A stretch of DNA of 43,399 nt from a virus: positions 1 through 43,399 of the IMG/VR virus record IMGVR_UViG_3300046511_000270. One strand, written 5' to 3'. The translations under genes were made by a program, and so were the position numbers. Below are positions 1-43,399 of the stretch, one piece after another (position 1 is the first letter of the stretch; each line of letters starts with the position of its first letter). The notes under the pieces were generated by a model that searched no databases, was not told where the DNA came from, and was given only the letters and a program-made list of their open reading frames with translations.

Positions 1-59
1 CCAAAAAAACCCCCCTTTATGGGGTACGCCCAGTATTGCCTTAACCCCCCCCCCCCCCC
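1..59. repeat. Left copy of an imperfect terminal direct repeat
   Basis: This stretch aligns with 43316-43373: both read CCA(A/T)AAAAACC..CCTT..ATGGGG(T)ACGCC, then a TGCCTT-containing segment, then a long C run. I count roughly ten substitutions or indels over about 58 bases. Such differences beside homopolymers look like read noise at a contig end, so the true genome is probably circular or concatemeric and was opened here. A genuinely diverged terminal repeat is the alternative. Confidence 0.6.
45..59. repeat. Poly-C tract (15 C) upstream of the Cro-like gene
   Basis: An uninterrupted run of 15 C follows TTAA; the other end of the window has the equivalent 13-C run at 43361-43373. The reading frame of the Cro-like gene at 111 is open backwards through this run. 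Its length is uncertain because it sits at the contig end, but its presence at both ends, in matching context, suggests a real homopolymer. Confidence 0.55.
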
Positions 60-110
60 GCTAAAAATCTAGCGATTACAAAGGTTTACAGGTTACTCGC
101 CGCGCGCAAT

Positions 111-323
111 ATGACCGGCGCCGACCTCGCGCGCGTGATCGGCGTCGACCGCGCGGCGATCACCGGCTGGCGCAAAGGCGCGATGCCGCGCCGCGACAAG
201 ATTGCCAAGATCGAGGCATGGAGCGGCGGCACGATCCGAGCCGCCGATTGGTTCGCGCCGGCAAACGACGAGCTCCCGCTCGCGGAAGACGAGCCGCCGC
301 TCGCGCACTTCGCGGCGCATTAG
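111..323 (+). CDS. Cro/CI-like HTH regulator, N-terminus probably encoded upstream
   Basis: A 70-residue product from this ATG begins inside a helix-turn-helix domain (LARVIGVDRAAITGWRKG, then a GG-x-I-x-A-x-DWF stretch typical of small Cro-like proteins). No Shine-Dalgarno precedes the ATG. The same frame is open upstream to the TAA at 42-44; bases 60-110 encode an amphipathic stretch (ITKVYRLLAARN) that fits the missing first helix. Joining the ends gives an ATG at 43350 that enters this frame through 13 C. It is first gene of the plus-strand arm and lies beside the palindromic operators, so it is probably the early switch protein. Family assignment is fairly secure; the start is not. Confidence 0.75.
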   Translation: MTGADLARVIGVDRAAITGWRKGAMPRRDKIAKIEAWSGGTIRAADWFAPANDELPLAEDEPPLAHFAAH

Positions 324-38754: not shown

Positions 38755-38939
38755 GGCGGAAGCTCGACAAACGCCGCGAGCTCATCCTCCCAAAAGAACG
38801 ATCGGCCGGCTATCGCGACGAAAGAGGGCCGCAGCATGTGATCGAGGATCGTCAGCCGCGCGACGACGGTGCCCTCGTGCGTCCGCAATTCGAGCGGCAC
38901 CGGCGGCTGCGTCGCAACGGCGGTCGACGTCGAGCTCAT
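38751..38939 (-). CDS. Hypothetical small protein
   Basis: A 62-residue product with overlaps on both sides. Beta-rich: VPLELRTHEGTVVARLTILDH, SFVAIAGRSFFWEDELAAFVELPP. No family recognised. Position between the GapR-like and VRR-NUC genes. Confidence 0.5.
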   Translation of the reverse strand: MSSTSTAVATQPPVPLELRTHEGTVVARLTILDHMLRPSFVAIAGRSFFWEDELAAFVELPP

Positions 38940-39397
38940 GCGGCGCCCGCCGGCTCGGCGGTGCCCAGATGTCGGCGAGCTCGCGAAAGCGCGTCGTCGA
39001 CGCTGACGGCGCCGGCGGTCTCGGCGCTCGCATCCTTGCGCGGTCGGCCGCGGCGCCGGCCGATCGGCTGCTCGGCGAACGGCGTCGGCTTCGGTGCCGG
39101 TGCCGGTGCCGTGGCACGCTCGACCGCGGCCGCGCCGAGCGGCGTGTCGGCCAGGAGACCGAGCGCGCGCCGGTATGCGGCTTGCGTCGCGAAGAACGTC
39201 GCGCGCGCTTCGGCGTCCATCTCCATTTCGCGGACCGCGCCGCGGATCATCGCCGGCACGAAGCCGGCTTCCTTCGCCTCGGCGAAGACTTCGCCCATGT
39301 CGTCGTTGATCGCCTTGCGGTCGCTGCGCAGTGAGAGAATCCGGTTGGCGTACCGGCTCAGTGCTTCGGCGTCGATCAATCCAACGTGTTCACTCAC
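38936..39397 (-). CDS. GapR/DUF2312-like nucleoid protein
   Basis: A 153-residue product from GTG 39397 with a very strong ribosome site (AGGAGGT). Residues 8-80 (LSRYANRILSLRSDRKAINDDMGEVFAEAKEAGFVPAMIRGAVREMEMD... AAYRRALG) match the DUF2312 domain. Its chromosomal member GapR is an essential alphaproteobacterial protein that binds over-twisted DNA during replication. From about 95 the chain is Pro/Ala rich with an AT-hook-like GRRRGRPRK. The phage copy may help its own replication or reshape host DNA topology. It is good evidence for an alphaproteobacterial host. Confidence 0.78.
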   Translation of the reverse strand: MSEHVGLIDAEALSRYANRILSLRSDRKAINDDMGEVFAEAKEAGFVPAMIRGAVREMEMDAEARATFFATQAAYRRALGLLADTPLGAAAVERATAPAPAPKPTPFAEQPIGRRRGRPRKDASAETAGAVSVDDALSRARRHLGTAEPAGAA

Positions 39398-43040: not shown

Positions 43041-43059
43041 TGTTGAATAAAACTCAACA
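43041..43059. promoter_or_regulatory. 19-bp palindromic operator 1
   Basis: TGTTGAATA-A-AACTCAACA: two 9-base halves around one base, matching TGTTGAGTT-N-AACTCAACA with two changes in the left half. It lies about 30 bp upstream of a minus-strand TATACT. Confidence 0.55.
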
Positions 43060-43080: not shown

Positions 43081-43101
43081 TGTTGAGTTTGCGTTGAGTT
43101 T
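43081..43101 (+). promoter_or_regulatory. Two directly repeated operator half-sites
   Basis: TGTTGAGTTT (43081-43090) and CGTTGAGTTT (43092-43101) repeat the half-site of the neighbouring palindromes in tandem, 11 bases apart (one helical turn). A weaker AACTCAA lies at 43128-43134. Confidence 0.5.
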
Positions 43102-43200: not shown

Positions 43201-43219
43201 TGTTAAGTTAAACTCAACA
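43201..43219. promoter_or_regulatory. 19-bp palindromic operator 2
   Basis: TGTTAAGTT-A-AACTCAACA: one mismatch from perfect symmetry and the same 9-1-9 layout as the palindrome at 43041. It ends 10 bp before a plus-strand -35-like element. A lone CTCAACA half-site follows at 43264-43270, near the expected start of transcription. Confidence 0.58.
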
Positions 43220-43258: not shown

Positions 43259-43315
43259 TACGCCTCAACAGCACGTTGTCGGGTGTCGAGCGGTCGACCG
43301 CCACCGCCCCGATCC

Positions 43316-43373
43316 CCATAAAAACCACCTTGAATGGGGACGCCGACGAATGCCTTTACACCCCCCCCCCCCC
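43316..43373. repeat. Right copy of the terminal direct repeat, with 13-C tract
   Basis: Counterpart of 1-59 and probably the more accurate copy, since it continues smoothly from unique sequence. It contains GGGGACGCCGACGA before ATG 43350, then CCTTTACA and 13 C (43361-43373). Sequence after 43373 is G-rich and looks like read noise. Confidence 0.6.
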
Positions 43374-43399
43374 GGGGAGAGTCTGGGGGGGGGGATGGG

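Follow-up and report, generated by a model that had tools for sequence, protein, structure and literature searches.

The window, by which we mean the whole 43,399-nt IMG/VR contig analysed here, derives from a temperate phage, as indicated by the integrase that it encodes. The contig is interrupted at a long run of cytosines, and its two termini view this one place from opposite directions. The features of the terminal regions are as follows.

1–44, plus strand: mixed-phase copy of the right-end flank 43315–43360 (77% copy, two-register fit), not independent sequence
45–59, plus strand: left-end view of the C-run, called as 15 C but best fitted by 13 with an admixture of 14
60–323, plus strand: Cro/C1-type HTH regulator, the 87 aa encoded after the run, assigned by HTH_3 and HTH_26, family alignment and modelled helices
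678–1526, plus strand: PD-(D/E)XK nuclease (PDDEXK_1, E=6.5e-12)
43041–43059, no strand: operator-like palindrome TGTTGAATAAAACTCAACA, with two mismatches to TGTTGAGTTWAACTCAACA (zero expected by chance)
43201–43219, no strand: operator-like palindrome TGTTAAGTTAAACTCAACA, with half-sites at 43081 and 43092
43336–43340, plus strand: Shine-Dalgarno-like GGGGA, from the duplex energy over the 20 nt before ATG 43350
43350–43360, plus strand: proposed start and first codons ATG CCT TTA CA, whose frame joins 60–323 with 13 or 16 C
43361–43373, plus strand: C-run as viewed from the right end (13 C)
43374–43399, plus strand: degraded, G-biased copy of 60–85 (identical at 12 of 26 positions; 13 of the 14 mismatches are toward G, and six of the seven non-G bases match)

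The right terminus reads GGGGA, nine nucleotides, ATG at 43350, CCTTTACA, 13 C and a G-rich tail, in agreement with the layout in the initial annotation (including CCT TTA CAC after the ATG), and at the left terminus 44 nt precede 15 C and GCTAAAAATC, which begins with GCT at position 60. The annotation had also supposed that the two ends join, and this is borne out by the reciprocal reads of the flanks and by synteny with a relative, G007 (41,192 bp), which matches this phage at 82% in the large terminase and 65% in the nuclease. G007 carries nuclease and terminase divergently on one contiguous stretch, with the gene order across the junction unbroken, and the same arrangement in our phage requires joined termini. 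The C-run halted the assembler and the circular genome was therefore opened exactly at the run; the closed circle is approximately 43,314 bp long (43360 − 60 + 1, plus 13).

A further suggestion, that the C count differs between the ends (13 and 15), does not hold. Positions 1–60 match 43315–43374 at 77%, and when positions 44 to 1 are read on the minus strand the register of a 13-base tract alone explains 70% of the bases and that of a 14-base tract alone 61%, while the two superposed explain 91% (43±9% for a null of shuffled flanks). This pattern is the trace of a read holding molecules with unequal run lengths. The 15 C are a mixed-phase call, because the bases to their left superpose the registers of 13 and 14 C, and the numbers 13 and 15 are therefore no evidence for natural variation. 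Mixing inside one read arises during flow-cell amplification, so the mixed registers do not argue for variation in nature either; they are compatible with slippage during sequencing, which counts against the frame switch proposed below. The C-run is a single real place read from either side, with a best length of 13 and 14 mixed in.

An origin of the run in sequencing or assembly, from a phage that has no C-run at all, was considered. Contig ends are rich in such runs (67 of 120 C14/G14 runs in the viral contigs L118–L237 are no more than 150 nt from an end), and the right tail at 43374–43399 is G-biased. However, the right end is read as C, which gives signal in two-colour chemistry, and not as G, and reads in both directions continue past the run into the opposite flank; because of these two observations a poly-G artefact, which had been named as the finding that would overturn the annotation, is excluded for the tract. 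The contig-end runs also show no strand skew of the kind expected of dark-cycle poly-G (24 C and 15 G at right ends, 17 C and 11 G at left ends). We therefore regard an artefactual run as very improbable. A poly-G read artefact does account for the G-biased tail that follows the tract, as signal fading in two-colour chemistry leads to G calls. Long C/G runs break viral assemblies, and this explains where the present contig starts and ends.

With 13 C the frames on the two sides of the run join exactly, entering the Cro-like protein at GCT 60 as had been anticipated, and they encode MPLHPPPPAKNLAITKVYRLL..., in which MPLHPPPP is followed by the 87 aa of a 95-aa Cro/C1-type HTH protein. The 87-aa part scores above the curated cut-offs of HTH_3 (25.0 bits, cut-off 23) and HTH_26 (24.4 bits, cut-off 22) and under that of the P22_Cro profile. 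An AlphaFold model of translated 45–320 places helices at residues 9–20, 25–32, 36–43 and 50–60 with pLDDT of about 85–91 across the HTH, and its closest counterparts in the PDB are domains of Cro/C1 type (Foldseek probability 0.96–1.00, E-values >0.01). Helix 1 of the model (residues 9–20) begins four residues past the run, supporting the proposal that the fused frame supplies the first helix of a Cro/C1-type protein; in function the regulator is a putative Cro.

An upstream start is likely because modelled helix 1 begins so close to the tract. There is no ATG, GTG or TTG between the run and helix 1; ATG 111 would remove the helix, and ATT 75 has no ribosome site and would trim the predicted helix. 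The duplex energy over the 20 nt upstream of ATG 43350 is −8.0 kcal/mol, which is reached by 3.4% of background windows, and at the other candidate starts it is about 0 or above, such that a ribosome site is seen only at ATG 43350. The ribosome site and the helix model thus favour ATG 43350 as the probable start, in which case the run would lie within the coding frame.

Translated in silico from ATG 43350, 13 or 16 C give a full-length product (95 aa for 13 C), 14 C give MPLHPPPPR and a stop after 9 residues, and 15 C give MPLHPPPPPLKI and a stop after 12. The predicted rule that 13 and 16 C keep the frame and 14 and 15 break it consequently applies to this start but not to two others, as TTG 43330 is in frame at 14 C and ATG 43334 at 15 C, both without a Shine-Dalgarno sequence. 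Because these fallback starts exist, though lacking a ribosome site, the ‘off’ state may only be ‘low’.

The two 19-bp palindromes at 43041 and 43201, of which none are expected, are upstream of the regulator, where approximately 570 nt without an annotated-looking gene separate it from a divergent MT-A70 methyltransferase. Promoter and terminator consensus sequences had no match in the regulator leader, and in the window we found no homologue of the CI-type proteins that the relatives carry. The operator pattern was found elsewhere in three low-GC contigs, all without runs. Of the other genes in the genome, 34025–35707 (minus strand), adjoining the packaging genes, encodes a protein with a C-terminal match to phrog_842 (beta-glucosyl-HMC-alpha-glucosyltransferase; E=2.7e-46), with possible DNA or cell-surface glycosylation as its function, and 38936–39397 (minus strand) encodes a GapR-like DNA-binding protein (Pfam GapR_DNA-bd, E=2e-10) of the alphaproteobacterial nucleoid-protein type that is conserved in the relatives.

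A run of approximately 13 C is far beyond chance. Leaving aside the C-runs at the termini and a stretch of 10 G in the degraded tail on the right, the longest C/G run in the core of the sequence is 7, and in 1.94 Mb of loci fetched regardless of runs two runs of at least 12 were found where 0.05 are expected. Both are in HTH regulators, one in G007 (12 C) and one in L098 (14 G); the latter (L098:3745–4335, minus strand) is the C1-type repressor of a low-GC phage, and slippage in its run, which is near the 3’ end, would alter the last third of the protein. We also surveyed 120 viral loci with C14 runs, scanning the 115 that have a host gene, and for the most part these genes encode methyltransferases or are of no assigned type. 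A single one is an HTH gene, and its run is just downstream of it; the best candidate for this gene is in L223, where a 15-C run at 763–777 is 23 nt past the stop of a small Cro/C1-like gene. Across the 120 loci we see no general tendency of C14 runs to concentrate in phage regulators; such runs are uncommon in regulators overall, yet they recur in this small set. In four IMG/VR contigs (L121:945–1776, L132:4348–5167, L149:6439–7311 and L179:5018–5835) a G14–15 run is located within the gene of a C-5 cytosine methyltransferase, and the open frames on the two sides of the run are long and overlap; from their sequences these genes look like phase-variable phage methyltransferases.

Relatives were found through the conserved PD-(D/E)XK nuclease neighbour, and they have a small HTH gene at the same operon place. 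Comparison of N-termini, proposed as a check on the extended frame, gives a divided answer: several relatives have 10–20 extra residues (as in the L267 extension, MRRPPPRGVPSNPG) and one extension contains PPP, but most of the HTH proteins begin just before helix 1. About 30 relatives lack the run, and those in prophages of Azospirillum and other genomes have no run of at least 9. An IMG/VR search for near relatives of the regulator gave none, phage records gave only weak Staphylococcus HTH matches together with nuclease relatives in Bordetella, Burkholderia and Pseudomonas, and the leader DNA had no match in the phage records. In G007 the 12 C are at the 3’ end of the Cro-like gene, and the contig of another relative, L245, begins with 9 C at the same operon place. 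We asked whether the run of L245 interrupts a Cro-like gene, but shuffled sequences match the family profile as well as the L245 peptide does, and we therefore retain L245 solely as evidence of position. In both 60–85 and L245:10–35 the C-run is followed directly by AAAAATC, 3–4 bases and CGATTACAA, a likeness that seemed strong but proved on scanning to be of modest significance only. A search for the C-run followed by GCGATTACAA returned a single match, L002, which is unrelated.

The run might instead act in cis within the immunity region, as DNA or as RNA, for example as a replication origin or a transcription or recombination signal, its position relative to the regulator being secondary. 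Operator-like palindromes adjoin it, L245 shares both its operon place and the motif after it, and the G007 and L223 runs are at or just past the 3’ end of the regulator gene. The position of the run relative to the gene nonetheless varies among the phages, the motif in common is of modest significance and most relatives have no run, and we consider a cis-acting role improbable.

A more serious alternative, though one we still think doubtful, is that a real run, prone to slippage, has no selected switching role and is there incidentally, either as prolines tolerated in an N-terminal extension that the protein can dispense with or as 5’ untranslated sequence ahead of a start at ATT 75. It would account for the relatives without a run that begin just before helix 1, ATT 75 is at about the family start position, and neutral drift with slippage could yield 13 C without a conserved position. 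The length of the run, set against the expectation for these genomes, and the poor credentials of ATT 75 speak against it, and if the run is in the coding frame slippage would truncate the protein even where it is unselected.

Homopolymeric tracts of this type are known from phase-variable bacterial genes with simple sequence repeats, such as the Campylobacter jejuni poly-G loci (PMC6321876, PMC4004267). As in those loci, a long C/G run that probably lies in a reading frame, here 13 C where the maximum elsewhere is 7, would make the protein subject to truncation by gain or loss of one base, a toggle between full-length and truncated forms that in our case is seen in silico only. The bacterial loci are mostly surface, modification and restriction genes, whereas the gene described here is a phage early-operon regulator whose run may vary in length. 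If read from ATG 43350, it shares with the methyltransferases of L121, L132, L149, L179 and L181 a C/G run of similar length (14–15 bases in theirs) within the coding sequence of a phage gene, but those are enzymes of unrelated phages. In profile, helix order and size it resembles the HTH regulators of Cro/C1 type that temperate phages carry (Pfam HTH_3; solved structures of Xfaso 1 Cro, 3bd1, and 434 Cro, 2cro), having a score above the curated cut-off and a modelled HTH fold that includes helix 1, and like them it is the first early-operon gene next to palindromic operator-like sites; it differs in that its putative N-terminal proline extension is encoded by a homopolymer.

We tentatively propose a slippage-prone frame switch in the regulator as the most likely reading, at somewhat short of even confidence. 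In this explanation the temperate phage would carry a true run of approximately 13 C in codons 4–8 of a Cro/C1-type HTH regulator, the first gene of a rightward early operon. Translation would initiate at ATG 43350 with the run decoded as prolines. A slip of one or two bases would cut the product short at 9–12 residues, so that the regulator would be switched by frame, reversibly, between on and off (or between high and low). The analysis establishes the tract and its junction, the reading frames, the membership of the HTH family and a predicted fold, while the start codon, slippage in vivo and any influence on the choice between lysis and lysogeny are inferred. A bolder and rather unlikely extension makes the lysis/lysogeny regulator a contingency gene: through C-run slippage a single phage population would hold decisions mixed in a heritable way, and runs in this gene would have arisen independently among related phages. 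A literature search, in which subscription papers were thinly covered, gave no report of a homopolymer-switched phage Cro or CI.

Many ‘linear’ viral contigs are broken at C/G runs, which is where such switches would sit, and gene callers thus miss them. Should the run slip in vivo, the phage would randomise its own early regulator by mutation, and this would constitute a bet-hedging route separate from noise in CI/Cro expression.
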